Shown here in pieces: positions 4,797 to 59,292 of a stretch of 64,000 nucleotides of DNA. The notes beneath the pieces were generated by a model. It saw only the letters and a program-made list of their open reading frames with translations, did no database searches and was not told where the DNA came from. The stretch comes from Pseudomonas quebecensis. Lineage in GTDB: Bacteria > Pseudomonadota > Gammaproteobacteria > Pseudomonadales > Pseudomonadaceae. Positions within the stretch are counted from its first letter, which is position 1. Each line of letters starts with the position of its first letter. The translations under genes and the position numbers were made by a program. Location: NCBI RefSeq assembly GCF_026410085.1, contig NZ_CP112866.1, forward strand, positions 4,525,001 to 4,589,000, read 5' to 3'.

Positions 4797-5570
4797 TTAC
4801 AGGCCCAGCAGCGACAACATGATAAAGGTCGCAAACAGCACAAAGTGGGTCATCCCTTCGATGGCATTCGTCTCGCCATCGTTGAGGTTGATCGCACTGA
4901 CGATCAACGTGATAAACACCATCACGGTTTGCACGGGGGTCATTGCCATCTGGAACGGTTGGCCGGTGTAGAGCGCCATGGCCTCCATCACCGGCACAGT
5001 CAGGATCACCGTCGACAACGAGGCGCCCAACGCGATGTTAACCACCGACTGCATTCGGTTGGCCAAGGCGGCGCGCAAGGCCGTCAGGATTTCCGGCGCT
5101 GCCGAAATGGCCGCCACCACAATCGCCGTCACCACCGGCGGCGCGCCGGTGCCTTCAAGGCCAAGGTCGAGGGTCTTGGACATCACCTCCGCCAACGCAC
5201 CGATCACCACCACGCCAAACACCAAAGTACCAATGGAAAACGCCAGGCTGACCGGCGCCGCTTCCTCTTGCGTCGGCAACTTCTTACGGCGTTTTTCCGG
5301 GTAGCTGTAGCTGAAGAAATAACTGTGCGGCCCCACCTGCATCCTCAGGAACAAGGTGTACAGCACGACCATCGCGCCGATGGTGAACGCTGAGTAAATT
5401 TTCCAGTCGCCCTCGGGGATAAATTCCGGCACGACCATCGATACACCCATGGCAGTGAGGATCATCACACTGTAGGTGCGCGCCGAATCGTCGTTGTAGG
5501 ACTGTTCGCCATGTTTGATCCCGCCCATCAGCGCGGCCAGACCCAGGATGCCGTTGATGTCGAGCAAAAT
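4797..5570 (-). pseudogene. chaA: chaA C-terminal part: Ca2+/H+ antiporter cut by the island
   Basis: This is the distal part of a ChaA-type calcium (or sodium)/proton antiporter: 256 codons beginning LDINGILGLAALMGG and including the second conserved exchanger repeat with the acidic APEILTAL block. It has no start codon of its own beyond a TTG and no promoter, because the island begins immediately upstream (in gene direction). The missing N-terminal 108 codons are at 58969-59292. Joining the two across AAAAT restores a continuous reading frame of 364 codons, close to the usual ChaA length. Confidence 0.93.
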
Positions 5571-5600
5571 TCTTTTCTAGACACATGAATTCATCTAGAA
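5566..5600. other. Left island end and attachment site
   Basis: AAAAT at 5566-5570 is repeated in direct orientation at 58967-58971, where the island stops. Just inside, TTTTCTAGACACA (5573-5585) is matched in inverted orientation at the right end. TTCTAGA (5575-5581) and TCTAGAA (5594-5600) are a 7-bp inverted pair around a 12-bp spacer, a shape typical of tyrosine-recombinase core sites. The TAG inside the end sequence also stops the chaA frame. Confidence 0.8.
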
Positions 5601-6579
5601 GGTGTAACCCTATACGAATCAGCAGCTTAGAAAACGATTTTGACACCTAAAACTTGACACCCATTTCCATGTGCTTCGGATACCCCAGACGGAAAAAACG
5701 CTGAATTCATCGACACTCCACCACCTCCCATAGGCTGAGAACGGAAGAGAGATCTCACAATGATCGATATGAGTTCATCGGGGCCAGGTTGCCCATCACC
5801 TCGAATTGACGGGTGGGAAGCCCTAGCGCACCATCCATCGCCTTTGCCCCCTCCCCCCCACAAATCACCAATCTCAAGGGTGGACAGCAGGCGCATATCG
5901 CAGTGTTGTCTGCGGCGAGGCGCGGGATGTCCAGTCACACCTGAAAAAAATCACGGTTGCGCTGGACGTGATTCAAGCCGATTCGGAGCCTAACATTAGA
6001 CTCGATACCACAAGCTAGGGGCCGAACACCAACCGAACTAAATATATGCGGAGGTAGTGCTTGTACTCCGTAGAACACGGCGACGAGATAAATCGATAAT
6101 TGATTCAAACGCTAAGTCAATATTGCTTTAATTAATGCCCCGCCAGCAGTCCCGGCAAAGAGCTATTAGAGACCACCTGGTTGAGGATGACCAAGCAATC
6201 GCTCAGTGAAATACTCTCTAGGAACTGAGTACACGGGGAAGGAGCAACCGCCGTCCTTGCGCTCAACCACGCTTAGGCATGCCGATAACCACGAACCCTC
6301 TCGTCCAGCCTAATCCCTACCCCCCGGCGTATTGGCTGATCAGCGTCCAGGCGGCAATTCCTTATCAGCGAAACACAGACAAAACAGATATACAAAACAA
6401 CATATCAATTGTCGGCCAACCTTTCACTGCGACATGAGGTTAAAGCAAAATTCCGTCCAGAAATACATGTAAGAGTATGCTTTTAATACACTATTTAAAA
6501 CTTTAGAAGCACGCACGAAAGTGCTTGACCAGAGCAGCAAGATCACTACGCTATGCCGTTTTTGGCGTAGGATCTAATT
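5571..6579. other. Non-coding left end of the island
   Basis: About 1 kb with no convincing gene. It holds the terminal repeats, two direct copies of TTGACACC (5640-5647 and 5654-5661) that recur at the right end (58941-58948), and AT-rich stretches before the recombinase operon that probably hold its promoter. A small inverted repeat (CTACGC ... GCGTAG) lies 20-40 bp before the first recombinase start. Confidence 0.6.
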
Positions 6580-8688
6580 ATGCTTACCTACCAAGTGCAG
6601 GATGATCGCATCACATTCAAGTGGGATGATGATGAATGTATTCGCGGCTACCGGATTGCTACTATCCACACTCCATCGTGGGTCGACAAAGAAGTGCTCG
6701 ACAAAGTAGCCGAAGCGGTTAGGGCATTATGCATCACAGGAGCTGAAACTAGCTATTCAGGGCGCTTCCGGGCAAGCAAATATATCTTCAAGCACATTAC
6801 CAAGCTTCGGTTAAAGTTCCCACCTGCGGAAGATGACTGGAACAACTTCATACTCACACATTACTCCCATCACCTCTACAACAAAGATCTCATACCCACG
6901 ACCCGCTTTGACCATTGGAGTGCGGTAGCGTTTGTTTATAAAAAACTGAGGCGAGATGGATTCATACCGGAAGACACATTCATCCCAGATTCAACAGCGA
7001 AGTCCGTCAGTCAACCGGAGAATATGTCTCAACCGGCTGGATACGGGACTATGCACACGCCCATTCCCAAAAGCCCACAATTTCTGCTCCCCAAAAAATA
7101 CCTTGTGGAAGAAGGCTTGAGTCTTGAAGATGACGTGTACCTACTTAATCTTAAGAACACTCTCGCGACAAGGGCCGATGCCATTGTTGAATGCTCGGTA
7201 GACTACTGGAATCGAATGCTAAGATGCCATGCCCGAGGTGATGAACTATGCAAGAACATTTCGAACGACGAAATCGAGGCAGTGCTTGAGAGCGGAAAAT
7301 TCAGCAGAAATGGGATGCATCTTGCGCATCCAGATTCGCCTACAGGTATTAACTGGTTTCTAGCCGTCGCTAGATATTATGCCGAACAGACCGACGAGCT
7401 TAAATCGATGACATTCGACGACCTGCAAGAGCTACCTTTCTTCAGGCCCGTCATCTACAACTCCCATAGCAAGCCAAAACTTAGGGCTCGACTATGGGAG
7501 GCTGCCGGCGACGACTGCATCGATAACAATACAGTTAACGAAACTTTCAATCGACTACTGGGCTACTTATCACCCAGAGACTGCGCAGTTGCAAGTGCGA
7601 TCATTGCATCAGAAAACCCTTCGTTCAATCCATCATCACTGACCAACATAAGGTTATACCGGCGAGATGGAAAATTCTATCTACGCGGCAATAGTGACAC
7701 CAAGCGAATAACAGTCAGCGTTAGCAAACCTCGCGCGCAGTCACGCAAGGTCTCTGTACTTCCCCCATTGAGCACACGGATCGTTATGGATGTGATTCGG
7801 TGTACGAGCATGCCAAGACGACGCCTGCTATCGGAGGGTAAGAGCGGGTGGAGGAAGCTGTTCCTTGTCTCGAGCAGAAACCAAATTGGCTCCAGTCCTA
7901 ACTTTGCAAAAACTTTGACTACGAATGCTGGACTCTCTCTGCACGATCTATATAAAAACGAGCTAGAAAAAGTAGGCGTGACGCCCGCCATGATCAATCT
8001 CTACACGATCCGATGCACTCAAGGGATTTTGGAGTTTTTGCGTACTGGTAGTCTCCAGGCCGTAGCGGACATGCTGGGCAACTCTTTGCAGGTGGTCAGA
8101 GATAAATATATTCCGGTCTGGATGGTTCATCGATGGGCGACGAGGTTTTTCAGGGTGCTACATCAAAAGGTCATCTTAGTAGCAACAGAAGGCGAGCCTT
8201 GGCAGTTAGCTGCATCTGACTTTAGCACTCGAGAAGAGCTACAGGCTTTTGTCCGACGGATACTATTAGGCCTTAAGAAGGGAGACCCTTTAAGCGAAGC
8301 CTTACGCTCGAAGCTTGGTCATTACTCGCCTGACCCCAGCTCTCTAATTGAAATGTTTGTAGAGCGCGAGCTGCTGTTTGATCGGAGTGCGGATAGCCTT
8401 GCCGCGATCTACGCATACGCAGATGCCGTCGATAAGCTTGCACTAGAAGAACGCTCGGTGATCGATGAGCGAACCAGTGTGCCCCTATGGATCTTCCCGG
8501 TGCTCAGGGATTTAGTAGCGAAAACAGTTTCCCTCGATTTCCATAGCGCATCTAACGCTGAGATGGCTATCGCGGGCAGGGTCTCGGGCGATTCCATGAG
8601 TGAACTCCGGAAATCGCATGCTCGTGCGACCATCCTGAAACACGACCTTCGTCCCCTAGTCTCGCTTTCTGTTTGGAAGGCCGTCTAA
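6580..8688 (+). CDS. Large tyrosine-recombinase-like protein with a degenerate active site (first gene of recombinase operon)
   Basis: 702 residues. The middle-to-C-terminal part is recognisable as a tyrosine recombinase fold, but the active site is eroded. I see no box-I Arg in the expected block near NPSSLTNIRL. Box II keeps Arg but has Tyr in place of His (YTIRCTQG). The usual GH of box III is GN (MLGNSLQ), and a Tyr follows (RDKYIP). It may bind DNA or partner recombinases rather than cut DNA. It overlaps the next start as TAATG, so translation is coupled. Base composition is AT-richer than the flanks. It fits one of the three recombinases of a GInt operon. Confidence 0.75.
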   Translation: MLTYQVQDDRITFKWDDDECIRGYRIATIHTPSWVDKEVLDKVAEAVRALCITGAETSYSGRFRASKYIFKHITKLRLKFPPAEDDWNNFILTHYSHHLYNKDLIPTTRFDHWSAVAFVYKKLRRDGFIPEDTFIPDSTAKSVSQPENMSQPAGYGTMHTPIPKSPQFLLPKKYLVEEGLSLEDDVYLLNLKNTLATRADAIVECSVDYWNRMLRCHARGDELCKNISNDEIEAVLESGKFSRNGMHLAHPDSPTGINWFLAVARYYAEQTDELKSMTFDDLQELPFFRPVIYNSHSKPKLRARLWEAAGDDCIDNNTVNETFNRLLGYLSPRDCAVASAIIASENPSFNPSSLTNIRLYRRDGKFYLRGNSDTKRITVSVSKPRAQSRKVSVLPPLSTRIVMDVIRCTSMPRRRLLSEGKSGWRKLFLVSSRNQIGSSPNFAKTLTTNAGLSLHDLYKNELEKVGVTPAMINLYTIRCTQGILEFLRTGSLQAVADMLGNSLQVVRDKYIPVWMVHRWATRFFRVLHQKVILVATEGEPWQLAASDFSTREELQAFVRRILLGLKKGDPLSEALRSKLGHYSPDPSSLIEMFVERELLFDRSADSLAAIYAYADAVDKLALEERSVIDERTSVPLWIFPVLRDLVAKTVSLDFHSASNAEMAIAGRVSGDSMSELRKSHARATILKHDLRPLVSLSVWKAV

Positions 8689-10862
8689 TGGAAGACTTTT
8701 CATTCGACGAGCGTCGTATCAAAGCGATGATCGAACAAGCGGAACGGCAAAGCAAAATCTATAAAAGAAGCCACAGCTATCAAGCAGATTGGCTGGTAAG
8801 GGGCGGGATTGGAAGTCAGGAATGGTTGGTCAGTTTTCCAGGTGGGTCAAAGCTTCAGTGCATGAGCTTTGATCGCTTGATGGCGGACGGCACCAACCTC
8901 ACCGACGACTCTAATAAACTGCTGCTAGAAACGGTGCAGAAATGGTTATTTCACTGTCGCATGGGCACCATTACAGGTAAACCAGTCGCGGAAGGTCGAT
9001 GGATTACATACTTTAGCTTCGCTATGAATTTGGCAGCACGCGCCAATCTTTATAAAGACACTTATGAAACCTGTACGCATGGCTTCCGGCTCTTTGACGA
9101 GGACGCGTGCAAAGCTATCGCCGAAACTTTCAGTCAGGGTGGATGGACTGCTGCTTTGTTGTTGAAGGAGCGTTTCATTTCACACCTGCTTGATATCTTA
9201 CCTGTCTCCTTCTCATTAGAGGAACTCATATCAGCCCCGGACGCCCTACCAGTTGAGCTCACAAGAGAAGCCATTTCCTACTTCACTCGAAACGATCTCT
9301 ATGTCTCCAGCGCCCAAAGCAGCACCTATGATAAAGGATTGCTTTCAAGAGACTATATTGGCTCCATTCTCGGTCGACCTTCAACGTCTCTGCATAATGC
9401 AAATTTCCGCCTGTTCATTAGGCAGTTTGAGCCAACCTTGGCCCATGACGACTTGCTACAAAGAGGTGTGCGCACAAATCTTCACAGCACTCAAAACACT
9501 AAGACATTAGATGAAGCAGCTGACGGGGCAATCGGCATCAGCTCTTTCCTAGATACTATGTCATGCCTAAAATTGTTTTTCCAAGGCCATGATATCCTGC
9601 CCGAAGACATCCCCGACATTAAACTGAACATCGACCAACTTTCTCTTAATTACAAGCAACACTTGAAGCTAGGTGGCCACACCAAATTGCTACCTCTTGA
9701 TATTGGCTTCAAATGCCTGAACCAAGCCTGCAAGTGGATAACCGTCTACGGGAATGCCATCGTTGAATCTCTGATTTTTTATATCGAGCAATTCGTCTCT
9801 ATTGACGAAGATAATTCATTGTCGAAACAGTCCGTAAAAAAGAACGAGCTCTTCCAGAAAACGAAACACCTATGGATGACGACAGGTATGGAAAACCTAC
9901 CTGCGCAGCCGCTATACCAAGCGCTCGCCATAAGCAGGCTCCAAACCAAAGAGAAGAAAAACTTCCCTGTAGACAAAACCAACTTCAAAATGGTGATGGA
10001 ATCTTTTTATGGTGCTTGCGCCATAATTATCGGCATCATAAAACCTATTCGGAACATTGAGCTTAGCACCCTGGAGCGCAACTGCCTTTCTACCGACCGG
10101 GGCAACAATGGCGCTTTTATGGGCCACATGGTCGGGAAAACTGGGGAGTTGGGTGCAAACGACTTCATTGAACGCCCTATCCCCTACGTTGCGGCTCATG
10201 CCATCCAGCTACTCCAAGTGCTCGGCGAAAAGCTGGCAGGTATCTATGGGGATGAATCGGAGTATGCACGGAGGCTGTTCTATATTCCTGGCAGGGGATT
10301 CAAATGCCCTAGTGGAGGAATTCCCGAATGGAAAGTAAACTTGTGCATTAATACTTTCTGTGATGCTGTCCACCTGCCCGTCGATAAATTGGGTCGGCGA
10401 TGGTATGTGCGCATTCACGAGATGAGAAAATTCTTCCTCCTGCTCGTACACAGGCACGTAGGAGATTCAGGGAAGGAATTGCTGAGATATATGGCAGGTC
10501 ACTCCAATAGAAAGCATATTGACGATTACACAGATTATGAGCCATCAGATTCGGAAGCCGTCCGATATGAATCCGAATGCATCGATGACAAGCTCATTGC
10601 TCTTGAAAACGGCTTACTGTCCAAAGATACAAACCAAGGGCTTCTAGCACTGTACACAGAAGCCTTGAAGAACTTTAAAGCCACTAGCATCGCTTCGATT
10701 AGCAACAAGGAATTACTCAAATACCTAGACAAAATGGTGCAACAACCTGAGTTCGATATGACCACATATAAAGTCAGGCTTGAAACTTACGATGAAGAAA
10801 TCTACACCATCGATTTCGCTATTTGTCTAGGAGGCCAAAAAGATGAGAGATACGACAAATAA
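8688..10862 (+). CDS. Large tyrosine recombinase with complete catalytic set (second gene of operon)
   Basis: 724 residues from ATG 8688, which overlaps the upstream stop; GGAAGG lies about 8 bp before it. The catalytic domain is in the C-terminal third: box-I Arg in IKPIRNIELSTL (about residue 454), HEMR for His-x-x-Arg (about 577-580), GH in MAGHSNRKH (about 604), and Tyr in DDYTDY. These are the residues needed to cut and rejoin DNA. The roughly 400-residue N-terminal extension is much longer than in phage integrases, as in the large GInt recombinases. Expected role: integration and excision of the island together with its operon partners. Confidence 0.85.
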   Translation: MEDFSFDERRIKAMIEQAERQSKIYKRSHSYQADWLVRGGIGSQEWLVSFPGGSKLQCMSFDRLMADGTNLTDDSNKLLLETVQKWLFHCRMGTITGKPVAEGRWITYFSFAMNLAARANLYKDTYETCTHGFRLFDEDACKAIAETFSQGGWTAALLLKERFISHLLDILPVSFSLEELISAPDALPVELTREAISYFTRNDLYVSSAQSSTYDKGLLSRDYIGSILGRPSTSLHNANFRLFIRQFEPTLAHDDLLQRGVRTNLHSTQNTKTLDEAADGAIGISSFLDTMSCLKLFFQGHDILPEDIPDIKLNIDQLSLNYKQHLKLGGHTKLLPLDIGFKCLNQACKWITVYGNAIVESLIFYIEQFVSIDEDNSLSKQSVKKNELFQKTKHLWMTTGMENLPAQPLYQALAISRLQTKEKKNFPVDKTNFKMVMESFYGACAIIIGIIKPIRNIELSTLERNCLSTDRGNNGAFMGHMVGKTGELGANDFIERPIPYVAAHAIQLLQVLGEKLAGIYGDESEYARRLFYIPGRGFKCPSGGIPEWKVNLCINTFCDAVHLPVDKLGRRWYVRIHEMRKFFLLLVHRHVGDSGKELLRYMAGHSNRKHIDDYTDYEPSDSEAVRYESECIDDKLIALENGLLSKDTNQGLLALYTEALKNFKATSIASISNKELLKYLDKMVQQPEFDMTTYKVRLETYDEEIYTIDFAICLGGQKDERYDK

Positions 10863-11391
10863 AAACCTCCACTCTCGTCACACTTGGCTTTCACAGGTGC
10901 TATCTAAAGAAATTACACCGTCGAAAGACCAGCTTCGAGCTCTATCCTCGATGCGAGGCTTCTGCAAACTGGAGGTCGCTGGCTGCTTCACATCGATTTC
11001 GCTCAACTCCCTGAAGCAAGCGGCTAAGGTTGCACAGTTTGGCATCTCTGGGTCAAGCCTGTGGGACAAGATGCTACAGATGAGAACCATGGCATTCGCC
11101 CTGTTGACCCCCAAGGTTAACCCGGCGCCGGCGCCTAACCTTCCTTCAGACAAGGATCAGGCACGCATCGCGCTGCTGGAGGCTCACATCGCCTCGATGG
11201 CGTACTTTGACATCCTGACTTTCCTAGAGCGTATTGATCCTCAGAACACCCGTAGCGCTGATGAAATCCGTGCAGCCATCGCACTTAAAGTCAAAACGTC
11301 CAAGGCCAAATATCACTCTTTCCTGATAAGCGACCAGATATTTTCTTCAGAGAAAATGAAGGTTATCGACGGCGGCAAAAAGGATGGGTAA
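10843..11391 (+). CDS. Small protein of the recombinase operon
   Basis: 182 residues, mostly helical in appearance, with no enzyme motif. AGGAGG lies 9 bp before its ATG, and the gene overlaps both neighbours (20 bp upstream, 8 bp downstream), so it is made together with the recombinases. GInt islands encode one small putative helix-loop-helix protein needed for recombination, and this is the natural candidate. Its place as third rather than last gene should be compared with known gin operons. Function is inferred from context only. Confidence 0.65.
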   Translation: MRDTTNKNLHSRHTWLSQVLSKEITPSKDQLRALSSMRGFCKLEVAGCFTSISLNSLKQAAKVAQFGISGSSLWDKMLQMRTMAFALLTPKVNPAPAPNLPSDKDQARIALLEAHIASMAYFDILTFLERIDPQNTRSADEIRAAIALKVKTSKAKYHSFLISDQIFSSEKMKVIDGGKKDG

Positions 11392-12850
11392 GCAACTCTA
11401 CACGGAATATGAGTCCGTAAGCGTACCAGACAAAGCTATGCCGGTTCGGAAGACTGGGGCGTTCATTGGAAAGCCACGCATTATCAGAAATTTCGTACTT
11501 ATTCGTTGGCCCAACGGGAGGCCATGTAACCTTGCCAATCTATGGATGGATGAGATCTGCGCGTCCACAGGCGCCAGGGATTCTGCGCGGGTAGACGCGG
11601 CGCTCATCACGCACTTCGTTCGCTTCTGCTCTGTCAAGAACATTCAATTCAGTAATTTCAACGAAACTAATTTTCAGGATTTTACTAAACAGCTAGTTGA
11701 AGAAACCAAATCCACCCTTCGTGGTATCGAACCAGCAAGGAACAACAACCGCACCCGGCTAATTCAGCATACCATGCTTAACTTTCTGCACTGGCTAACC
11801 GAAAATTACCCAAATCTATCTAAAACACCATTGATAGGCTTAAAGAATAGTGGTGCAAACATCACGATATCTTACGAGACAAATCCCAAAACCAAGCGAT
11901 GCTACATGGTTCATCCACTGCTCGTAGCTCCCGTGCCGTACAACGATGACAAGGTGGCAATAGACGAACATATCATCCAAAAAATCCAGGATGAGATTTT
12001 CCGGAAGCGAGACTGGGAGGATCTGCCTGCTAGCTCCAGACTTAAATCAATCAGTGACCTCGAACTTTACGATGCTACCAGTGTGTATCTATACGAACGG
12101 CGGATGTTCACGTTAAGAATGATGAAGCTCACAGGACTACGTCCTGAGGAGCTGTTTGACCTCGACCTTGAGCTCAATCAAAACATTTCGAACACACTGG
12201 AGATTGTGATCCCCACTAAAAAGCGCGGAACTCCGGCACCGTTACGCCGTTTTAAAATCAATGCTGCAGATGCAAGGCGGTTTGCAATTTACGTGGAGGC
12301 TAGGAAGGCTTACATTGACTTCCTAGCAGATCGTAATATTTTGTTCGACCAGCCCAACAATATATTCCTAGGTGAAAACGGTAGTCGACTGAAAAAAGAA
12401 TCAATCACTAAGGAGTTTGACCGACTGTGTTTAGGTGCTGGTTTGTCAGGTACCCGTGTTTGCCTGTCCATGTTTAGACATCGTTTTGTCACGCGTCAAA
12501 TCAATATCAGACTGGAGGAAAGATTCGCCCAAACCCCCGCTCTAAAGAAAGGGTGGACGCCGGCGCTGCGAGACGATGTTTGCGCAGAGGTGGCCCAACT
12601 CACCGGCCACTCTGACCCTGCTTCTCTCCATCATTATTTTCACGCTGAATACAAGGCGCTCACCTCGAGTTCTACCTACAGTTCGATGCTTGAGGCCCAA
12701 GACGAACTGGACTCTGTTAAAGACACGCTCACGGCTCTGGAGCATAAATCTAAGCTGCAAAAAATTGATCTGTCGGTTGAGATCCGAAACGTCAAAGCTC
12801 TGGTCGAAAAGCTGGAAATGCGGCTAAGCAGCCGCGAGAGTGCTGAGTAG
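11384..12850 (+). CDS. Tyrosine recombinase (fourth gene of operon)
   Basis: 488 residues. An N-terminal SAM-like, core-binding domain (about 60-150) is followed by the catalytic domain: box-I Arg253 (LTGLRPEEL), box-II Arg365 (MFRHRF), His409 in LTGHSD and nucleophile Tyr418 in HHYF. The usual box-II His is Ser362, a tolerated change. The last 60 residues look coiled-coil (repeated Leu/Glu/Lys), possibly for contact with the other recombinases. It ends the operon; cargo begins directly after. Confidence 0.87.
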   Translation: MGKQLYTEYESVSVPDKAMPVRKTGAFIGKPRIIRNFVLIRWPNGRPCNLANLWMDEICASTGARDSARVDAALITHFVRFCSVKNIQFSNFNETNFQDFTKQLVEETKSTLRGIEPARNNNRTRLIQHTMLNFLHWLTENYPNLSKTPLIGLKNSGANITISYETNPKTKRCYMVHPLLVAPVPYNDDKVAIDEHIIQKIQDEIFRKRDWEDLPASSRLKSISDLELYDATSVYLYERRMFTLRMMKLTGLRPEELFDLDLELNQNISNTLEIVIPTKKRGTPAPLRRFKINAADARRFAIYVEARKAYIDFLADRNILFDQPNNIFLGENGSRLKKESITKEFDRLCLGAGLSGTRVCLSMFRHRFVTRQINIRLEERFAQTPALKKGWTPALRDDVCAEVAQLTGHSDPASLHHYFHAEYKALTSSSTYSSMLEAQDELDSVKDTLTALEHKSKLQKIDLSVEIRNVKALVEKLEMRLSSRESAE

Positions 12851-17680: not shown

Positions 17681-19063
17681 TTAGTCTGCAGGCCACGCAG
17701 CTAAGCGGATCACAAAGGTCGTATGGCCTTCTCTGGAGACGCATCCGACGGTGCCGTCATGGGCGTCTACCAATGATTTGACGATTGCCAAACCTAGCCC
17801 GGCATTGTTTGTAGCACCATCTCTACGTGCGGGATCAGCTCTGTAAAAGCGGTCAAACAGGCGGGGCAGATGCTCTGCTGCTATCTCCTCTCCGGGGTTC
17901 GTCACTGACACGCTGATCATGCTACCCAACGACTCGATTTTTACGGAGACAGTGCAGTCAGGAGGGGTATACCTAAGCGCATTAGAAAGTAAATTCGAGA
18001 TCATCCTATCCAACATCGTACCGTCACCATAGACCGCGCCGTGTCCGGAGACTTGTAGCTTTACTCCGGTGTCCTCTGCCAGCAACTGGTAATACTCGAA
18101 GAGTTTTTCGACCACCGAACGCAACTCGACTTTCTCTTTGGCAGGTAGAACCAGACCGTTGTCCGATTTTGCCAAGAAAAGCATGCCGTCAATAATGCTG
18201 GAGAGCCGGTTGAGATCCTCCAGGTTGGAATAGAGATTCTCTTCATAAGTGTCCGGCGCACGCTTCTTTGAGAGGATGACTTCGGTGTGCGTGCGCAGAT
18301 TGCTGATAGGGGTTCGTAGCTCGTGCGCAATATCGGCTGAAAAGTTGGACAGCCGAACAAAAGACTCTTCAAGGCGAGCAAGCATGGCGTTGAACGAAGA
18401 GACAAGGCTCTCAAGCTCACGAGGCACCGAGTCCATCGGGATGCGCTCTTTCAGCGAACCGGCTGACATTGAGGCCGCGACTTGCGTCACTTGTGCGACC
18501 GGCTTCAACCCGCTCCGCGCCACCAGCCACCCTAAGGCTGCGCTGACTAGAGCGCTGATAGCCAGCCCAATGACCAGCCACCAACGCAAAGTTTCAACGA
18601 AGTGCATGTGACTGGTGATATCCATACTCAACCAGGCAGTTAGTGGCTCAGTTTCATTCACTAAATGAACTTGTGCCCTCATGCCTCTGTACATATGGCC
18701 GCCAGCAGTCCACTCCGACATGTCCTCCACTGCCTCATGAGCGGCAGCAGGAGGTTGTGCAGCGCCGTTGGGGGTAGCGAAGATCGTCCTTCCACCTTTG
18801 GTGACAATCGATGCTGAAAGCTCCTGATGGGCACCTAGCAGGGCTTGCAGTTGCAACACCACCTCTGAAGAGTCTACGGAGCCAGCTTCGCCATCCATGA
18901 TTTGCCGAATGGATTCGAGCTTTTCCATCATGAGTTGACGGTCGAGGCCTTTGAAGTGGTGACGACTGAACGCATCGAAGGTAAAGCCAGCTACAACCAG
19001 CACGGCAACGACTGCACAGACGAACATCATGCTCAAACGAAGGGTAAGAGATGCTCGCTTCAT
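17681..19063 (-). CDS. copS: Copper-sensing histidine kinase CopS
   Basis: 460 residues: N-terminal membrane segment (about 10-30), periplasmic sensor domain (about 31-160), second membrane segment (162-182), HAMP linker, phosphoacceptor His247 in the block [11 protein letters not shown], then an ATPase domain with N box ([13 protein letters not shown]) and GLGLAIV. The order is that of heavy-metal sensor kinases (CusS/CopS). Periplasmic Cu would trigger phosphorylation of CopR. It overlaps copR by 4 bp and faces the same way. Confidence 0.92.
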
Positions 19064-19743
19064 TCTGTGTCAGGAGCGTCTAGCATGTAGCCCATTCCCC
19101 TCGTCGTCTGAATCAGCTTGGTGTCGAAATCATCATCGATTTTGGCCCGGAGCCGGCGAATTGCTACTTCGATCACGTTGGTATCACTGTCGAAGTTCAT
19201 ATCCCAAACCTGCGATGCGATCAGTGATTTTGGCAGGACTTCCCCTCTACGGCGCATAAGGAGTTCTAAGAGGGAGAATTCCTTTGCGGTGAGGTCAATA
19301 CGTCGACCTGAGCGTGAGGCACGGCGCTTTAGTAGGTCGACCTCCAAATCCCCGATCTTGATAGATGTCTGGTTGGGCACGGCGGATCCACGTCGAAGCA
19401 AGCTTCTGACGCGAGCTAGTAACTCGGAAAATGCGAAGGGTTTAACGAGATAGTCGTCCGCGCCCAACTCCAAACCTTTGACCCGATCATCGACTCCATC
19501 CCTGGCCGTTAGAAAAAGCACAGGGACTGAGCTCCCGGATGCACGTACACCCCGGATGACTTCCCAGCCATCAACGCCCGGCATCATCACGTCCAGAATC
19601 AGGAGATCGTAGGTCTCGCTCAGCGCTTGATGTAGCGCCTCCGTTCCCGTCACAACCCGGTCGACAGTGAAGCCAGCCTCCACCAGACCCTGCTGTAGGT
19701 ATATTCCGATTTTGGGTTCGTCTTCTGCGACCAAGAGTTTCAT
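19060..19743 (-). CDS. copR: Copper response regulator CopR
   Basis: 227 residues of the OmpR/PhoB class. Acidic pocket E7-D8, phosphorylation site Asp51 ([10 protein letters not shown]), switch Thr (LFLTARD) and Lys (LVKPF), then a winged-helix DNA-binding domain with TTRGMGYML. It matches CopR/CusR of copper operons. It probably binds the repeated CTTACNNAAATGTAAT boxes nearby, two of which lie in its own upstream region, so self-activation is likely. Confidence 0.93.
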
Positions 19744-20497: not shown

Positions 20498-21433
20498 TCA
20501 CCCTTGAGCCATATCGATTGAAGGGCTCAATGTTCCTAGCCACGCCACCAAGCAGACGATAACCACAGCACAGGTTGACTCAATAAGTACGCTTTTTCTC
20601 AAAGCAGTCGCTGCCAGGGAATACTCACCGGCCTCCACAGAGCGCTCGAGTGAAGGACTCAGGTAAAAACGATTGAGGGTAGCCAGCCCGATCATGCACC
20701 CAAAAAGCAGGATTTTTAAAAGCAGAAGGACGCCATAGGTGCTGGTTAAAACTTCTAGCAACGTCGGCCCGACAATGAAGAGATAGTTAGCGATGCCCGT
20801 GACTATGATCGTACCGACAATGAACGCGCCTGCTGTTTCGAAGCCCTTGAGCGCTCGTGACAGCACTCGTACGAGTTGCTCCGAATTAGACCTCCTAATG
20901 CTCAACATCAAGCCAAACGCCGCGAGAGCTCCGATCCAGCCGCCAGCGGCGAGAAGGTGCAGAATATCAGCCGTAAAGTGCCAGAATCGCTGAGTACCTT
21001 CGTCCATCGCCCCATGACCTGTCCACGCGAGCGTAGACAAAGCGATGCCGCCTGCCAAGGTCGCAACCCCGAGGCTCCATGTTGGCCATCGCGCGCTCTG
21101 ACTTGCGACAAAAATCACCGCTGCCAGCGAGATCATGCGCGTCACCCAGCTATATCCAATCTCAGTCTCGTACAACATCATTTCCAGATGAGGTCGCAGC
21201 TCCACCCAGTCGGATGCGCCGCTCATATTTTTTGCCATGACGATGAAGGTGGCTATCGACAAAAACACACCAACAGCAGCGATGCCAGGTAGTAGCGACC
21301 CAAAATGCAACACCGCGCCTGATACGCGCTCTTTTCCCCGAAAGCTGTAAAGCCCGAAGACTGCTAGGCCGAACAGGAGCATCAGGTCTAAGTAGAGCGC
21401 GAATCGCAGTACCACATTTAATGAGTCGCTCAT
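20498..21433 (-). CDS. copD: Copper resistance membrane protein CopD
   Basis: 311 residues from ATG 21433 (MSDSLNVVLRFALYL); an earlier in-frame ATG lies inside copC and is not needed. About eight transmembrane helices with conserved His in the TGHGAMDEGTQRFWHFTADILHLLAAGGW block. CopD works with CopC in taking copper from periplasm to cytoplasm. It starts 2 bp after the copC stop, so translation is coupled. Confidence 0.92.
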   Translation of the reverse strand: MSDSLNVVLRFALYLDLMLLFGLAVFGLYSFRGKERVSGAVLHFGSLLPGIAAVGVFLSIATFIVMAKNMSGASDWVELRPHLEMMLYETEIGYSWVTRMISLAAVIFVASQSARWPTWSLGVATLAGGIALSTLAWTGHGAMDEGTQRFWHFTADILHLLAAGGWIGALAAFGLMLSIRRSNSEQLVRVLSRALKGFETAGAFIVGTIIVTGIANYLFIVGPTLLEVLTSTYGVLLLLKILLFGCMIGLATLNRFYLSPSLERSVEAGEYSLAATALRKSVLIESTCAVVIVCLVAWLGTLSPSIDMAQG

Positions 21434-21435
21434 GC

Positions 21436-21819
21436 TTATTTCACTTTGAAAGTTACGGCGCCGGTGATCGGGTGGGTGTCGGATGAGACTGCTCGCCATT
21501 CCACTTTATAGGTGCCAGTTGTGAGAGGGGAGGCAGGAGTTACGACCATCGTTTTGGGATCACCGCCACCGGCCACGCTGGCTTTCACACCCATAGGTGA
21601 ATTGGGCATGCCAGGCATGTCGGTCATGATCAACTTGGCTCCGGAAAACTGAGTGACCAGGTTTTCAGAAAAGTGCAGCTCAATCTTTGCCGGGGCTTGG
21701 CCGTTCTCACCTTCAGCAGGAGTTGAAGACAGCAGCTTCGGGTGGGCTTGGGCAACTGCACTGAGCAGTAAGCTGGATGAAAGAGCAACGGCCACAACAC
21801 AGGATTTGAAAACAGACAT
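21436..21819 (-). CDS. copC: Periplasmic copper-binding protein CopC
   Basis: 127 residues: signal peptide ending ...AVAQA, mature protein starting HPKLL with the N-terminal His used as a Cu(II) ligand. Further features are the LHFSEN block, a Met motif (MTDMPGMPNSPMG) for Cu(I), and SSDTHPITGAVTFKV at the C-terminus. This is the full CopC beta-barrel. It lies between copB and copD in the copABCD order. Confidence 0.94.
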   Translation of the reverse strand: MSVFKSCVVAVALSSSLLLSAVAQAHPKLLSSTPAEGENGQAPAKIELHFSENLVTQFSGAKLIMTDMPGMPNSPMGVKASVAGGGDPKTMVVTPASPLTTGTYKVEWRAVSSDTHPITGAVTFKVK

Positions 21820-21888
21820 GCAAGGCTCCTCACAGCGCTTAGCTGTTGTAATGAGGTTAGGTAATTATTTGGTGCCGCTAACTTCGAT

Positions 21889-22836
21889 TTAGAACCACAC
21901 TCGGACGCCGAGCACTAGGCGTGCTTCGTTATTATCTTCGCCTTCATCGCGGGCATAGTCTGCGGTTTTGCCGTAAGCCCGATTCCAAGTTACACCGACG
22001 TAAGGTGCGAATTGCGGACGGAATTCGTACCGGAGCCGCAAACCAATCTCACTTTCAGACAGCCCTGATCCAACTCCACGTTGGGGATCGTTTTTGCCAT
22101 AGAAATTGAATTCTGCCGTCGGTTGCAGAATCAGCTTATTGGTAAGGAGAATGTCGTAGTCACCCTCCAACCGAGCAGCGGTCTGGCCACCTTCACCCAG
22201 ATAAGCAGTAGCCTGGGCCTCGAAATTGTAGAGCGCAAGGCCCTGAATACCGAAAGCAGCCCACGTTTGTGGGTCGCCTGGTTTGAAGTCTTGACGAACC
22301 CCACCGACTAAATCCCACCAAGGGCTAATGGCGTGTCCCCATAAAGCGTGAACCTCAGCTTCTTCAGTCTTTCCATTGGTGCGCTCACCTTCGGTGCGCA
22401 ACCAAAGGCGATCAACATCTCCCCCTATCCAACCTTGGGCTTCCCAGTTCAGCGCGCTTCCATCGTCAGCATCCTGCCATTCCAGCTTCTCAAATATAAA
22501 AAATGAGTTGAGAGCACTGTCATGGACTTCGTGACCACCAGGGGCGTTATAAACTGCGGCTCTGTCAGCATCGGTAAGTGGTGGTATCGGAGTCCGACTT
22601 TGAGTTTGTGGCTGCTTGGCGGGCTGCATACCCTCCATTTTGCTGTGATCCATGCCCTTCATCTGGCTGTGATCCATGCCCTGCATCTGGCCCTGATCCA
22701 TACCCTGCATTTGGCTGTGATCCATGCCCTGCATCTGCCCAGTAGACTCAGCAGCTGCCGGCAAGGCAACACCAGCAGTGAGAGCGACCGTGAGCACAGC
22801 TGAGTGCATGCGAGTCCCGCTTAAGAAATTACTCAT
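21889..22836 (-). CDS. copB: Outer-membrane copper resistance protein CopB
   Basis: 315 residues from ATG 22836, preferred over ATG 22842 because AAGGAG gives proper spacing only for the former. Signal peptide, then five 8-residue Met-rich repeats of the form M-x-GMD(H/Q)(S/G)x (about 37-76), a linker, and the CopB beta-barrel domain ending in VLGVRVWF, with a terminal aromatic as in outer-membrane proteins. It binds or sequesters copper at the outer membrane. It starts 10 bp after copA. Confidence 0.93.
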
Positions 22837-22846
22837 AGCCATCTCC

Positions 22847-37921: not shown

Positions 37922-37922
37922 A

Positions 37923-40091: not shown

Positions 40092-40172
40092 TGAGTTCTC
40101 TGAGGGTCGCGCATCCGTGCGCAACCTGCTTTCATGGAATGATCACGCGTCCCTCATGAGAGGCTCTCATCA

Positions 40173-41066: not shown

Positions 41067-41108
41067 GCCAGGGGTAGGGATTGCCTAATTATGGTGGTGT
41101 CCCTAAAG

Positions 41109-41258: not shown

Positions 41259-41262
41259 ACTA

Positions 41263-41346
41263 CTAGGCAGGTAGGTCGCCGAAGCTCTCGCGAAGTAAGC
41301 TCTGCATCATTACCGAGGCAGCGCCTTCGAGAAAATGTTCCTGACT
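41263..41346 (-). pseudogene. 3' tail of a second sirtuin gene
   Basis: The minus strand encodes SQEHFLEGAASVMMQSLLRE, SFGDLPA and a stop. This is nearly the same as the C-terminus of the intact sirtuin at 49046-49810 (SQEHFLEGPASVMMQSLLRE, AFGNHPDS). Upstream the match is lost. Only the last 27 codons remain. Confidence 0.85.
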
Positions 41347-48783: not shown

Positions 48784-48900
48784 GCACCAGATGACGGCCA
48801 CTATGGTCGACTTCTGCCTGCGCTGACCAAACGCAATCAGTCGAAAGTAGCCATTGTAGGCACGCAGTGGCTCCTCCCAAGTAGTAGCATAAGCATCGAG

Positions 48901-49040
48901 CGCAAGCGGAGCGCGCTGGCCCTCTGGGCCCAAGACTTGAGGATGTTAGCCCGCAGGGCCGAAACCTGGCGCAGCCAGGGTTTGGTTCACGTCAGGCGTG
49001 CCCAGAGGGCCAAGCCCAAGCAAAAACGATGTGGATCGCC
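48901..49040 (-). repeat. Gene-end repeat, copy F
   Basis: On the minus strand it follows the sirtuin stop codon and reads GACGTGAACCAAACC, GGTTTCGGCCCTGCGGGC, TAACATCCTCAAG, then GGGCCCAGAGGGCC (hairpin) and AGCGCGCTCCGCTTGCG. It is the best partner of copy E. Confidence 0.82.
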
Positions 49041-49045
49041 GGCGA

Positions 49046-49810
49046 CTACGAATCAGGATGGTTGCCGAACGCCTCGCGAAGAAGGCTCTGCATCATCACA
49101 GAGGCAGGGCCTTCGAGAAAGTGCTCTTGGCTGCTGACATCGAAGCGCACAGGATTGATGTGTGCGACAGTCGCCCCCTGTCCCAAAGCGCGTAACGGAA
49201 GCTCTGCTGCCGGATAGACAACCCCGGACGTTCCAATCGACAGGAACACATCGCACTCCTGCGCAACTGCGAGCCCTGCGCCCCATGCATCCTCTGGCAG
49301 CATCTCACCAAACCAAACGACGCCAGGTCGAACATACCCATCACACGCACTGCATCGCGGCGGCTCAATCCGACTTCCATCTTCAGGCTGGGCGTCAGAC
49401 GTAAGAGGCAAGGTATGCGCCAGGCCACAATCGATGCACCGAGGCGAATGCAGGCTGCCGTGCAGATGAATCACATCCTGGCTACCAGCGCGCTCATGGA
49501 GGTCATCAACGTTCTGGGTCACCACGGTCAGTTTGGGCACATGCATAGCTAGTTCGGCGATAGCGAGATGAGCACCGTTTGGCTGCGCCTGCAGAACTTT
49601 ATGCCGGCGCCATTCGTACCATCCCCAACACAGTGATGGATCAGCTCGGAATGCTTCGCTGGTGGCGAGCTGCGCTGGATCGAAGCGCTCCGATAGTCCC
49701 GTCAATGCGTCTCTGAAAGTCGGGATGCCACTCTCAGCTGATGCACCAGCGCCTGTGAAGACAACAACGTGCTGAGCTTTCCTCAATTGCAGAGCTGGCG
49801 TACTGGTCAT
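49046..49810 (-). CDS. Sir2-family NAD-dependent deacylase
   Basis: 254 residues from ATG 49810 (AAGG 9 bp upstream). NAD-binding GAGASAESGIPTFRD, catalytic TQNVDDLHERAG with HLHGS, four zinc Cys (CIDC and CSAC pairs), and SIGTSGVVYPAAEL. Tyr and Arg in WGWYEWRR match the class III (SIRT5/CobB) pocket that prefers succinyl- or acyl-lysine. It could be a metabolic deacylase or an NAD-related defence factor; no toxin or sensor partner is fused. Its own C-terminal tail is duplicated at 41263. Confidence 0.9.
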   Translation of the reverse strand: MTSTPALQLRKAQHVVVFTGAGASAESGIPTFRDALTGLSERFDPAQLATSEAFRADPSLCWGWYEWRRHKVLQAQPNGAHLAIAELAMHVPKLTVVTQNVDDLHERAGSQDVIHLHGSLHSPRCIDCGLAHTLPLTSDAQPEDGSRIEPPRCSACDGYVRPGVVWFGEMLPEDAWGAGLAVAQECDVFLSIGTSGVVYPAAELPLRALGQGATVAHINPVRFDVSSQEHFLEGPASVMMQSLLREAFGNHPDS

Positions 49811-55111: not shown

Positions 55112-57031
55112 ATGAAGCTGCAGAGTATTCGGCTATGTAATTTTCAATCCTTCGGCAATGAACCTACGGTAATCACATTCGAGGATGTCACCTACCTTAT
55201 CGGCCCCAATGGCTCTGGAAAGACAGCAGTCCTGCAGGCGCTCTGCAGGTTGTTTGCCTTTGATCCAAGCCTGCGTCGGATCAAGCGATCTGACTTCCAT
55301 GTGCCTGCTGATGAGGATTTGGTACCTGAGGAGCGCAGCCTATGGCTGGAAGCGGATTTCGAATTCCCAGAGCTTCTGGAGGATGAAGACAACTCGACCG
55401 TGGCCCCGCATTTCGCTCATATGCGATTGGATACAGCCGACGGCATCCCGCGTGTTAGATATCGATTGAGCGCGACCATCGGGATTGATGGAGACATTGA
55501 AGAGAACCTAGTTTATGTCCTTGATGTTGATAGAAACGCCAACCCACTATCGACCGCAGTCGTCACTCGGGCGCATCGCAATACCATTCAAATGCATTAC
55601 CTCCCCGCCAGACGAGACCCTGCCGACCACATAACCTATGGAGCTAACGCCCTGCTCGGACGCTTGCTACGAGCAGTCAATTGGGAAGATGACCGCGCAA
55701 GAATTAAAGGACTCACTGACGAAATCAGCGAATGTTTGTCAGGAAACCAGTCGGTAAGTGCATTCAGTGAAAGCCTGAATGGGATGTGGAAGCGACTTCA
55801 CAGAGGCACCTTTTTCACCGATCCCAAGCTCACTTTCGTCACATCCGAAATTGAGTCGCTTCTAAGACACATGTCAGTGTCGTTCTCCCCAGGGCACGAC
55901 GAGAATCTAGTCGACTTCTCTCGCCTCAGCGATGGACAGAAGTCGATGCTTTACCTATCACTGGTGTTGTCCTCTCACGCCATCGGGCGTGCAGTCCTAA
56001 CCGGTAAGGACGTTTCTTTCGACGCTGACAAACTGAAGCCACCGTCATTCACACTGATCGCAGTGGAGGAGCCAGAAAACAGCCTCTCTCCTCATTACCT
56101 CGGGCGCATCGTGAACGCCCTCAATAGCTCAATTGGAGGGGCTGACTCTCAGGCAATCATTGCGACCCATGCCCCGTCCATGCTCCGCCGCGTGGATCCC
56201 GAGAACATCCGCTATCTACGCTTGGCTGCGAGCCGTGCAACTAAGGTCACCTGCATAGCACTACCCGACAAAGAGGATGAGGCTCATAAGTTTGTCCGAG
56301 AGGCTGTGCAGGCTTTTCCTGAAGTTTATTTCTCTAGGCTGGTTGTACTAGGCGAAGGTGACAGTGAGGAAATTGTCCTTCCAAGAATACTTCAAGCGAA
56401 AGGCGCACCTGTTGATGAGTCAGCGGTGACAATAGCTCCACTGGGGGGACGCCACGTCAATCATTTCTGGCGCTTGCTGGCTGCATTAGAAACGCCTTTT
56501 GTGACCCTCTTGGATCTCGATGTCGCACGACATCAAGGTGGGTGGGGGCGGATTAGCAACGTCAATAATCAGTTGGCAAAGTTCTCTCCAGATAAAAAAC
56601 TACCTAACTGGGAAATAGCTAAGTGGAACGAAGATCTTCCAGTTCGAACCGACCACTGGTTTAAGGAAGGAACAATAAGCATTTTTTCCGAGCTTGAAAA
56701 ACGGGGCGTTTATTTTTCGGATCCTATGGATCTAGATTTCTCCATGCTTCTAGCCTACCCAAAAGCGTACGGTGTTTCCCGAAGCCCTCCTGACGAATCA
56801 ACTCTTAAGGCAGTGCTCGGAAAGAGTCACTATAACGCCGGTCAATATGATGCAAATGAGCAGGAACTGTTTGGAACCTATCACTCAAAATTCAAATTAG
56901 GTAGCAAGCCCGCAGCACACATCTCCGCCCTTGCGAAGCTGACTGACGAAGATCTGCTAAAAAGCCTTCCTCCATCGCTAGATCGTTTAGCCAACGCAAT
57001 CATCGCGGCGCTGGAGGACATCCCAGAATGA
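55112..57031 (+). CDS. gajA: Gabija-type GajA: OLD-family ATPase/TOPRIM nuclease
   Basis: 639 residues. ABC-type ATPase with Walker A GPNGSGKT (31-38), signature LSDGQKSMLYLSL, Walker B LIAVEEPENS (about 315) and H-loop IIATHAPSM. Then a TOPRIM nuclease with the catalytic Glu in LVVLGEGDSEE (about 410) and acidic DLDVA. Class-2 OLD nucleases like this pair with UvrD helicases as the Gabija anti-phage system: GajA nicks DNA when nucleotides run low. It overlaps gajB by 4 bp. Slightly longer than the reference GajA. Confidence 0.87.
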   Translation: MKLQSIRLCNFQSFGNEPTVITFEDVTYLIGPNGSGKTAVLQALCRLFAFDPSLRRIKRSDFHVPADEDLVPEERSLWLEADFEFPELLEDEDNSTVAPHFAHMRLDTADGIPRVRYRLSATIGIDGDIEENLVYVLDVDRNANPLSTAVVTRAHRNTIQMHYLPARRDPADHITYGANALLGRLLRAVNWEDDRARIKGLTDEISECLSGNQSVSAFSESLNGMWKRLHRGTFFTDPKLTFVTSEIESLLRHMSVSFSPGHDENLVDFSRLSDGQKSMLYLSLVLSSHAIGRAVLTGKDVSFDADKLKPPSFTLIAVEEPENSLSPHYLGRIVNALNSSIGGADSQAIIATHAPSMLRRVDPENIRYLRLAASRATKVTCIALPDKEDEAHKFVREAVQAFPEVYFSRLVVLGEGDSEEIVLPRILQAKGAPVDESAVTIAPLGGRHVNHFWRLLAALETPFVTLLDLDVARHQGGWGRISNVNNQLAKFSPDKKLPNWEIAKWNEDLPVRTDHWFKEGTISIFSELEKRGVYFSDPMDLDFSMLLAYPKAYGVSRSPPDESTLKAVLGKSHYNAGQYDANEQELFGTYHSKFKLGSKPAAHISALAKLTDEDLLKSLPPSLDRLANAIIAALEDIPE

Positions 57032-58704
57032 TCAGCGCGGATGTATGGAAAGTCGCCGATGGCTTGACCTTGGAAACAAACGCCCTTCTCGCTGTGAGGG
57101 AGCTTGGAAAGTCGCTCGCGCTCACCGCAGGCCCAGGCGCAGGCAAAACGGAGGTTCTGGCGCAGCGTGCAGACTTTTTGCTACGCACCGGAAACTGCCG
57201 ATACCCAAAGCGAATACTGGCGATCTCCTTCAAGGTCGATGCGAGCATAAACCTCAAGGAACGGATTCGTCGCAGATGCGGACTTGATCTGGCTGCACGC
57301 TTCGACAGCTACACCTTTCACGGCTTCGCCAAGCGCATCATTGATAGGTTTAGACCCGTGCTCACGGGCGGGGACTCTCTTGAGCCAAACTACTCCATAG
57401 GCGACGAACCAATTCAAGGCAAGCAAATTAAGTTCGCGCAGCTCATACCTCTCGCAACGAAGATCTTGAGCAATTCAGTGGTTGCAAGAAATGCAATTTG
57501 TCAGACCTACGCTGATGTATTCCTTGATGAGTTTCAAGACTGCACTACTGAGCAGTACGCACTGCTGAAGCTTGTCTTCATGAATAAGCCAATTCGATTG
57601 ACCGCCGTCGGTGACACCAAACAGAAAATTATGGGCTGGGCGGGAGCACTGGATGGCATATTTATAGACTACGCAAAGGACTTCGACGCCCGACCACTCA
57701 ATCTATATCGAAACTTCCGATCTAAGCCTCGGCTTTTGCGGATGCAGAACGAGATCATTCGAACACTTGATCCTGCTGCGGTGATGGCAGATGACCTGAT
57801 CATTGGAAACGACGGCGAACTCCTCGCTCGAAACTACGACAACAGTCACAGCGAAGCAGCCGCGTTGGCCAACATCATCCAGAAGTGGATAGATGTAGAG
57901 AAAATACCCCTACCAGAAATAGCGATTCTTTTTCCCAGGCAGATAGACCTCTACGGCACCCTCCTCATGGAGCAACTGGCAGCCAGAGGAATTCCCTTTC
58001 GCAACGAGCATGAGTCTCAAGATCTAGTTAATGAGCCCGCCGCTCGCCTAATTATTGACTACCTATCATGCCTGTATCGGGAGCGAGAACCGAAGGCGTG
58101 GATCAATTTGATGGAGCAACTGGTTTCATTTAATGACGAGGACGGTGAATCTGAGATCCAGAGAAACTTCGAGCGCCTCTATCTTGCCCAGCGCAAGGAA
58201 GTGAAAAAATTGGCCCGATCTGACGCGCCTTATTCAGGATGGTGGGAGCTAACTATGAAGTTCCTAAAGAACATCGGCCTACCCGTGCTGACCACCCTTT
58301 CTTCTGACTACGAAGCAAAAGCCAGATTGAACGAGGTTATCAAGAACACGAGACAGCAAATTGAGAAACTGCTCGAGCAAGAACCGGATTTGCTCAAAGC
58401 ACTTGATCTGTTCTCCAACGATCAAGCAGTCCGTTTTCTGACGATTCATAAAAGTAAAGGATTGGAATTCCACTCTGTAATTATGATCGGTGTAGAAACA
58501 CAGACATTTTGGGGCAAAGTCCAAGAGGAGCGTTGCGGCTTCTTTGTGGGTGTTTCACGTGCCAAGGAGCGGTTGATGATCACGACATGCGACTTACGCT
58601 ATCGACCGGCCTCAAACCCTCCAAGGTGGAATGAGCATCGCACTCCTCATGCTGAGTTCGTCACATACGTAACGCCATTTCTCTCCGCCCAGCCAAATGC
58701 CTGA
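57028..58704 (+). CDS. gajB: Gabija-type GajB: UvrD-like helicase
   Basis: 558 residues of helicase superfamily 1. Walker A AGPGAGKTE (about 33-41), motif II DEFQD (about 168-172), VGDTKQKIMGW (motif III), LTIHKSKGLEF (motif V) and FVGVSRAKERL (motif VI). Its start overlaps the gajA stop (ATGA), so the two are made together. In Gabija, GajB joins a GajA core and senses or processes DNA ends. The last protein-coding gene of the island. Confidence 0.87.
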   Translation: MISADVWKVADGLTLETNALLAVRELGKSLALTAGPGAGKTEVLAQRADFLLRTGNCRYPKRILAISFKVDASINLKERIRRRCGLDLAARFDSYTFHGFAKRIIDRFRPVLTGGDSLEPNYSIGDEPIQGKQIKFAQLIPLATKILSNSVVARNAICQTYADVFLDEFQDCTTEQYALLKLVFMNKPIRLTAVGDTKQKIMGWAGALDGIFIDYAKDFDARPLNLYRNFRSKPRLLRMQNEIIRTLDPAAVMADDLIIGNDGELLARNYDNSHSEAAALANIIQKWIDVEKIPLPEIAILFPRQIDLYGTLLMEQLAARGIPFRNEHESQDLVNEPAARLIIDYLSCLYREREPKAWINLMEQLVSFNDEDGESEIQRNFERLYLAQRKEVKKLARSDAPYSGWWELTMKFLKNIGLPVLTTLSSDYEAKARLNEVIKNTRQQIEKLLEQEPDLLKALDLFSNDQAVRFLTIHKSKGLEFHSVIMIGVETQTFWGKVQEERCGFFVGVSRAKERLMITTCDLRYRPASNPPRWNEHRTPHAEFVTYVTPFLSAQPNA

Positions 58705-58971
58705 CAGATAGCCGCGTGTCGCTAATCTTGTATGAACTCGCGGCAAGGATGCTCCCCACACAGCAAGTCATCCTTAGACCTCAAGCAGAGTCACAAACAC
58801 GGGCTGAGGAAAATCTCCGGGCTTCCGGGGTATGCCATAGATAGAGGTGTGTCAGGAAGGACAAGGCAAGAGCACTCCCAATCAAATACACATCTTAATC
58901 TTCCCCATTAAGAGCAAGAGCAGGTCAAAGCCTAAGGGCTTTGACACCAAAGCGGAGTGTGTCTAGAAAAT
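58705..58971. other. Right island end
   Basis: Non-coding. Close to the border lies a perfect 9-bp hairpin (GTCAAAGCC / GGCTTTGAC, 58924-58945), overlapping TTGACACC (58941-58948), which also occurs twice at the left end. The terminal CTAGACACA on the minus strand (58957-58966) is the inverted partner of the left end, followed by AAAAT (58967-58971) and then chaA. The hairpin may end the gajAB transcript or bind recombinase. Confidence 0.75.
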
Positions 58972-59292
58972 CACCGCCGAGTAAATGGTGTCGCGCACCA
59001 GGGTCGGTGACGGTTCGTTACTCATCATGATCGCCAGGATCACCACCTCCACCAGCACGGCAGCGAGTGTCAGGATCATGGTGCCGTAGGGGTCGCCGAC
59101 TTTTTCCGCCAGTTGCTCGGCATGGTGCGCCACGCGCATCGACGCCATCACGATAAACGCAATCAACGCCAACCCCGCGAGCAACGCCACCATTTGCCCG
59201 CTGTGCAGCATCCAATGCTCCAGCGGATAGGCGGCGATGGCGGCAATCAGCGCCAGCAGCATGAATTTTTCTTGCTTGAGGGATGTGAGCAT
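58966..59292 (-). pseudogene. chaA: chaA N-terminal part: Ca2+/H+ antiporter cut by the island
   Basis: From ATG 59292, 108 chaA codons with three hydrophobic segments and the conserved VGDPYGTMILTLAAVLVEV block (first exchanger repeat, acidic Glu). The true frame ends at ...TIYSAVI; the island then adds Phe and TAG. It keeps the native promoter, so a short membrane fragment could still be made. The remaining 256 codons are at 4797-5567. Confidence 0.93.

Follow-up and report, generated by a model that had tools for sequence, protein, structure and literature searches.

The window analyzed here, a 64-kb stretch within the 5.6-Mb single-contig genome of Pseudomonas quebecensis, carries a 53,404-bp genomic island (positions 5567-58970) that divides chaA, an antiporter gene, into two parts. 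This island is most probably a site-specific integrative element that is moved by its own four-gene recombinase operon and that itself brings the six bases found at its operon-proximal end. The ends of the island, the corresponding empty site, the operon, the recurrent use of chaA as a target and the host hexamer at the operon-distal end can all be read from sequence comparison. The island is bounded by a perfect 13-bp inverted repeat, TTTTCTAGACACA, and its junctions with chaA are arranged as follows:

4797-5567, minus strand: chaA C-terminal fragment, a 256-aa open frame with a TTG start assigned by frame only
5567-5572: foreign hexamer AAATTC, separating the host flank from the operon-proximal end; variable in other islands
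5573-5585, plus strand: operon-proximal terminal repeat, a perfect inverted copy of 58958-58970; relatives have similar ends
58958-58970, minus strand: operon-distal terminal repeat, the inverted copy of 5573-5585
58971-58976: host hexamer TCACCG, the same as in the empty site of genome G061
58963-59292, minus strand: chaA N-terminal fragment, 109 aa, its last residues and stop coming from the island end

The boundaries of the insert come from comparison with G061, a genome of the same species in which both flanks are joined without an insert at 99% identity and chaA is whole. On the plus strand, the empty site of G061 reads GTCGAGCA followed directly by TCACCG. The hexamer AAATTC does not occur at the empty site in G061 or in other relatives, and the TAG that ends the N-terminal fragment is supplied by the operon-distal terminal repeat. 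PF01699 matched the C-terminal part at 52.6 bits, above its cut-off, and the N-terminal part at 24.5 bits, narrowly below the cut-off of 24.9. GC content between the two parts, taken in 2-kb steps, is approximately 0.44-0.59, compared with 0.60-0.64 outside them. A tRNA gene was looked for within the window and not found.

An earlier note on this DNA, made from its letters alone, had held that an island splits chaA, that the surrounding order is deaminase-chaA-deaminase, and that alignment with island-free relatives would reveal a continuous antiporter gene. All of this is borne out: the two parts lie on the minus strand between an 8-oxoguanine deaminase-like gene and an adenosine deaminase gene, and chaA is unbroken at this point in G061 and in 22/22 loci of other relatives, identified by DNA matching the C-terminal part. 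The same split in strains without an island, which the note named as evidence against itself, occurs in none of these loci. The joint that it rebuilt stands only as an insertion in chaA, as the exact cut proposed (5571-58971, 53,401 bp) is 3 nt off the G061 empty site, a mismatch that the note itself had named as refuting, and leaves one extra codon because 5567-5570 belong to the foreign hexamer. The resulting 364-codon antiporter, with ATT joined to TTG CTC, is ruled out by the G061 empty site and by the intact ChaA of G061, which has 363 aa counted from ATG.

Recurrent insertion in chaA and the six bases at each end

We searched 398 Pseudomonas genomes with a pattern that joins the chaA flank to the element end across six unspecified bases. 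chaA was occupied at the same base and in the same relative orientation in 12 of them, and a reversed-pattern control gave 0. The large recombinase of the operon, encoded by open reading frame 2 (ORF2), is present in 10 of the 12, at identities to the window's protein ranging from 98% to ~28%. On a recombinase tree of 35 rows, 13 of them from chaA, the chaA label needs 4 changes compared with a shuffled mean of 10.7, and the use of chaA is therefore either old or regained. At the level of sequence, chaA is a recurrent target of related islands. The hexamer at the occupied chaA is TAATAA in both G242 (locus L154) and G396 (locus L155); in G396 other genes stand in the operon's place, one of them, near that end, Shedu SduA-like.

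Allowing at most 3 mismatches, we matched the empty-site pattern in 243/398 genomes, chance matches included, and its reversed control also matched in G009 and G015. From 150 rows listed, we kept 130 as chaA and set aside 20 as belonging elsewhere (3 mismatches in 17 of them, 2 in the other three). Among these listed matches, 130/130 chaA empty sites have the native-type hexamer without excision scars, and 130/130 encode IY(S/A)AVMLDIN. Islands may thus either leave cleanly or not leave. In G181, which is occupied, a match to the empty-site pattern lies at an unrelated place and has 3 mismatches; G352 has two places on two contigs that match the pattern with 1 mismatch each.

The two ends of the islands differ in their six bases. 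A host hexamer follows the operon-distal repeat in 10/10 chaA right ends read in the 12 occupied genomes, whereas the operon-proximal hexamer is foreign in 9/12 chaA islands. We then compared proximal hexamers between pairs from different species whose flanks are 84-88% identical and whose elements are 94-100% identical over the first 6.5 kb. Six pairs, not all of them independent, keep the hexamer: all six bases agree in G240/MAFF 302030, window/G272 and G149/TH31, and five of six in window/CHM02, G272/CHM02 and PS662/PS645. In sequence terms, we take the hexamer to be a spacer, usually retained by the element between species. We also considered the hexamer as a footprint of the last donor site, and rejected this since its retention across species pairs fits inheritance better. 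For PS662 and PS645 (loci L109 and L110), the island end region in chaA is 99.3% identical over 15 kb while the flanks are ~86% identical, which points to recent transfer between species.

A second subfamily is inserted in a LuxR-type response-regulator gene, at PDLV-LD codons. Six left ends were tried at this target and four aligned, all of them with a foreign proximal hexamer; for L083 and L115, no placement of the left end was obtained. The one right end read, in G378 (1/1), has the host hexamer at the operon-distal end. Further sites of the family lie beside a glutamine-synthetase-like gene and at an AI-2E-transporter-like gene (L169; L172 in G361; L086 in G143).

The named contigs with close relatives of the window's recombinase are from Pseudomonas, and two with distant relatives are from a Solemya symbiont and Pseudoalteromonas. 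Among 369 sampled gammaproteobacterial genomes there were 3 matches, one of them the window's own genome, with a first-look filter that may miss distant ones, and a tblastn search of a phage collection with ORF2 (E 1e-5) gave none. Left-end DNA matched one plasmid record, through the chaA flank alone, and plasmids carry partial or distant relatives of ORF2. The Pseudomonas koreensis plasmids CP027478.1 and CP027479.1 have relatives of a distant member's large recombinase where no gene is annotated. The word chaA was absent among the listed matches of a literature search on genomic islands and tyrosine recombinases.

The recombinase operon

Four overlapping genes, at 6580-12850, adjoin the left end of the island:

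6580-8688, plus strand: ORF1, 702 aa, putative recombinase-fold protein (R478 and Y510 invariant in 35 rows; predicted structure)
8673-10862, plus strand: ORF2, 729 aa, large tyrosine recombinase (catalytic residues in the 35-row alignment)
10843-11391, plus strand: ORF3, 182 aa, small protein predicted to be all-helical (AlphaFold model)
11384-12850, plus strand: ORF4, 488 aa, ordinary tyrosine recombinase (PF00589, 34.4 bits)

ORF2 and ORF4 have the catalytic residues of tyrosine recombinases. In ORF2, R460, K489, H582, R585 and Y619 occur in 35/35 aligned rows and H610 in 94%, and no Pfam or NCBIfam model matched the protein; in ORF4, R253, K280, R365 and Y418 are invariant in 35 aligned rows. 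A profile comparison of ORF2 with ORF4 gave a weak match (probability 13.7%). ORF1 lacks a conserved first catalytic Arg, its motif having been recognized by reading the alignment, and the best PDB matches to its AlphaFold model are Cre/XerA (probability 0.99, E 0.028). ORF1 may thus be a recombinase-fold protein, with fold support that is weak at this E value. A sequence search of the PDB with profiles of ORF1 and ORF2 found nothing below E 0.02. The AlphaFold model of ORF3 is all-helical, with a mean pLDDT of 78.5 and a pTM of 0.47.

The order recombinase-fold protein, large recombinase, small helical protein and ordinary recombinase recurs in 35/39 loci, a set taken from the ORF2 search matches and biased towards complete operons. 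The four misses (L081, L112, L126 and L131) fail the length filter, and the frame is broken in at least L081 and L112. The same four-gene order is found at L132 on a Providencia plasmid (NZ_CP096356.1), with a class A beta-lactamase gene and umuDC as neighbors.

Proposed movement of the island and alternative explanations

We propose that the element would form a circle with a six-base spacer lying between its two inverted 13-bp ends, and that this circle would recombine with a fixed site in chaA. On integration, the host's six bases would end up beside the operon-distal repeat and those of the element beside the operon-proximal one, with chaA broken as long as the island is present. With this polarity, a full cut-out would return the host its own hexamer and make chaA whole without a scar. 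The circle, the strand exchange and the element's keeping of its hexamer on leaving are steps that we infer.

Several observations weigh against an element that moves by its own recombinases and carries its proximal hexamer along. Circle, excision and transfer have not been observed. G242 and G396 have an island end in chaA with no ORF2 match, the fold support for ORF1 is weak, and the profiles of ORF1 and ORF4 gave no match when compared (probability 0.2%). The proximal hexamer is chaA-type in 3/12 islands (G167, G181 and G273), as if sometimes host-derived. Despite element identities of 96-97%, the window's hexamer has 1/6 bases in common with that of G240 and with that of MAFF 302030, so a hexamer is at times replaced outright; with that of G079, where element identity is 69%, it shares 0/6. 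Equal hexamers could also come from a shared donor site that we do not see.

The islands might instead have spread without their own recombinases, through homologous recombination of chromosomal DNA among chaA-bearing strains. Such exchange would place copies at the same base of chaA and would carry the hexamer along. We examined seven pairs for a step in identity at the junction, resolved to 150 columns. The step is clearest in PS662/PS645, where identity rises from 91% in the flank beside the junction to 100% in the element, and smaller in other pairs; window/G240 and G240/MAFF show no rise above flank identity in the first block of the element. Because these 2/7 pairs lack a step at the junction, movement by the element's own enzymes is slightly weakened and homologous recombination raised. 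The PS662/PS645 step nevertheless argues against homologous recombination, as do the retention of the four genes as an operon with catalytic residues and the use by the same family of a second, unrelated target gene, and we consider this explanation quite unlikely. It is also unlikely, if a little less so, that the hexamer is merely the outermost part of the element end and not a crossover spacer. Its retention in several pairs would fit such an arrangement, but 5/6 bases differ between elements that are 96-97% identical, the hexamer is chaA-type in 3/12 islands, and it lies outside the perfect inverted repeat.

A real possibility is that the island behaves like the elements called SEs, with a circle copied out while the chromosomal island stays, so that chaA would never be restored. 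The operon has an SE-like set of proteins (a large and an ordinary recombinase, a recombinase-fold protein and a small protein), the ends are inverted and enclose a 6-bp spacer, and the 130 listed empty sites are scar-free, as they would be if islands left seldom or not at all. A scarless cut-out predicts identical empty sites, however, and hence the 130 sites do not decide between the two. Copying out is disfavored by the polarity, the reverse of that of an SE (where the target hexamer is operon-proximal and the spacer distal), and by a gene order and sequence unlike those of an SE.

The earlier note had gone further, suggesting that the host has lost Ca2+(Na+)/H+ antiport, that chaA belongs to the Pseudomonas core, and that excision acts as a switch for ion tolerance. 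We find the first two of these ideas unsupported and the switch very improbable. The genome keeps a TIGR00367 calcium/sodium antiporter, scoring above cut-off, and six PF00999 antiporter loci, which remain as putative alternatives to ChaA and speak against a loss of antiport as a whole. A strong chaA match is present in 22/35 same-genus relatives and lacking in 13/35, which leaves its place in the core unsupported. In favor of a physiological switch, chaA is whole in relatives without the island; against it stand the 13 relatives without a strong match and the other antiporters. Moreover, one site is common to islands with largely different cargo, which therefore indicates a choice of attachment site rather than regulation. 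Similar elements offer the switch no support either, with excision occurring in few cells for GInts (PMC5385486) and no empty site left after circle formation for SEs (PMC10214605).

With the ends and the empty site known to the base, and with a naturally occurring series of insertions at one position, the polarity of these poorly understood multi-recombinase elements becomes directly testable. The regulatory-switch idea for chaA is corrected, and copper-resistance and phage-defence cargo would move between Pseudomonas species at the cost of one apparently dispensable antiporter gene.

Cargo and comparison with known systems

Between its ends, the island carries the following cargo:

17681-19743, minus strand: two-component heavy-metal sensor kinase and response regulator
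20498-24709, minus strand: copper cluster with copD, copB and the copA multicopper oxidase
26642-28999, plus strand: copper-type P-type ATPase
33800-41066, plus strand: aldo-keto reductases, flavodoxin, cupin, CMD, hydrolases and a LysR regulator
55112-57031, plus strand: gajA of Gabija (PADLOC GajA, 1105 bits, full length)
57028-58704, plus strand: gajB of Gabija (PADLOC GajB, 899 bits)

The enzymes at 33800-41066 look detoxification-like. GajA and GajB are adjacent and full-length (55112-58704), as a Gabija system requires, and the segment 53489-58924 that includes them has an 89% identical counterpart in G149, within its chaA island. Two similar blocks, 41107-41346 and 48899-49132, share 80-96% identity; as the second spans the 3' end of a Sir2 gene, the first may be what is left of a further Sir2 copy. 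No relaxase or conjugation gene was found among the island proteins searched, which do not cover every open frame. A 7.35-kb end module is common to the window, G240 and G272 at 94-96% identity, and only ~15-17 of the island's 53 kb in total are shared with those two genomes; the end module therefore persists while the cargo turns over.

The island resembles both GInts and SEs in its working, and its gene order fits neither. GInts are the ginABCD genomic islands of Bardaji et al. 2017 (PMC5385486). As described there, they share with our island a four-gene operon at one end, several recombinases, one of them without the first Arg, a small helical protein, a strict target and a short other end. 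Their cargo is likewise variable, reaches at least 70 kb and includes copper resistance, and their authors inferred six-base staggered cuts (PMC5385486). The tripartite layout of a GInt is found here as the operon (6580-12850), the cargo and a short end at 58970, with the module conserved in G240 and G272. GInts differ in having the ginA, ginB and ginC recombinases followed by small ginD (PMC5385486), whereas the small gene is third and the ordinary recombinase last in the 35/39 loci. GInt ends are direct imperfect repeats of 10-17 nt (PMC5385486), and the end found here is a 13-bp perfect inverted repeat, short direct repeats not having been separately searched. Gene order, as published, is what sets the island apart from GInts (PMC5385486).

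SEs share with the island a large and an ordinary recombinase, a recombinase-fold protein and a small protein, together with inverted ends of 13-19 bp and a 6-bp spacer (PMC10214605). The SE order, intA-tfp-intB-srap in pAQU1, is permuted in the island. SE insertion is described as bringing the target hexamer to the operon-proximal end and the circle's hexamer to the distal end, so that the spacer turns over at each hop (PMC10214605), whereas the host hexamer is distal here in 10/10 chaA right ends and 1/1 at the second target. No score of the four pAQU1 SE proteins exceeded 8.0 bits against the 35-row profiles or 2.7 bits against core profiles of 14 rows, while six held-out family members reached at least 54 bits with those core profiles for ORF1, ORF2 and ORF4. 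The ORF3 core profile is uninformative, as distant family members score low too, and the best SE partners, Tfp for ORF1 and IntA for ORF4, are at noise level. We considered SE as a label for the island and rejected it on hexamer polarity, gene order and profile scores.

Other comparisons are looser. Like the island, Tn554 (TnpA, TnpB and TnpC) has several recombinases, a small protein, TnpC, and a 6-bp footprint, as described in PMC10214605. It differs in having three genes and no extra recombinase-fold protein, and is set apart by description. The trio of the Gamma-Mobile-Trio (GMT) islands of Mahata et al. 2024 is reportedly recombinase-like. No GMT-named NCBIfam model matched the proteins tried, the presence of such models in the library being unconfirmed. 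Passages of PMC12039261 describe GMT as mobile islands with phage-defence genes, a likeness to the present one, and those of PMC12595487 deal with different islands, located at tmRNA, of which one is mobilized by a jumbo phage.

We tentatively suggest, with confidence a little short of even, that the island belongs to a separate multi-recombinase integrative lineage, mainly of Pseudomonas. Such a lineage would have its own operon order, a polarity opposite to that of SEs and a heritable six-base spacer, and would leave host bases intact while inserting in conserved-motif codons of dispensable genes (AVMLD in chaA and PDLV-LD in the response regulator).

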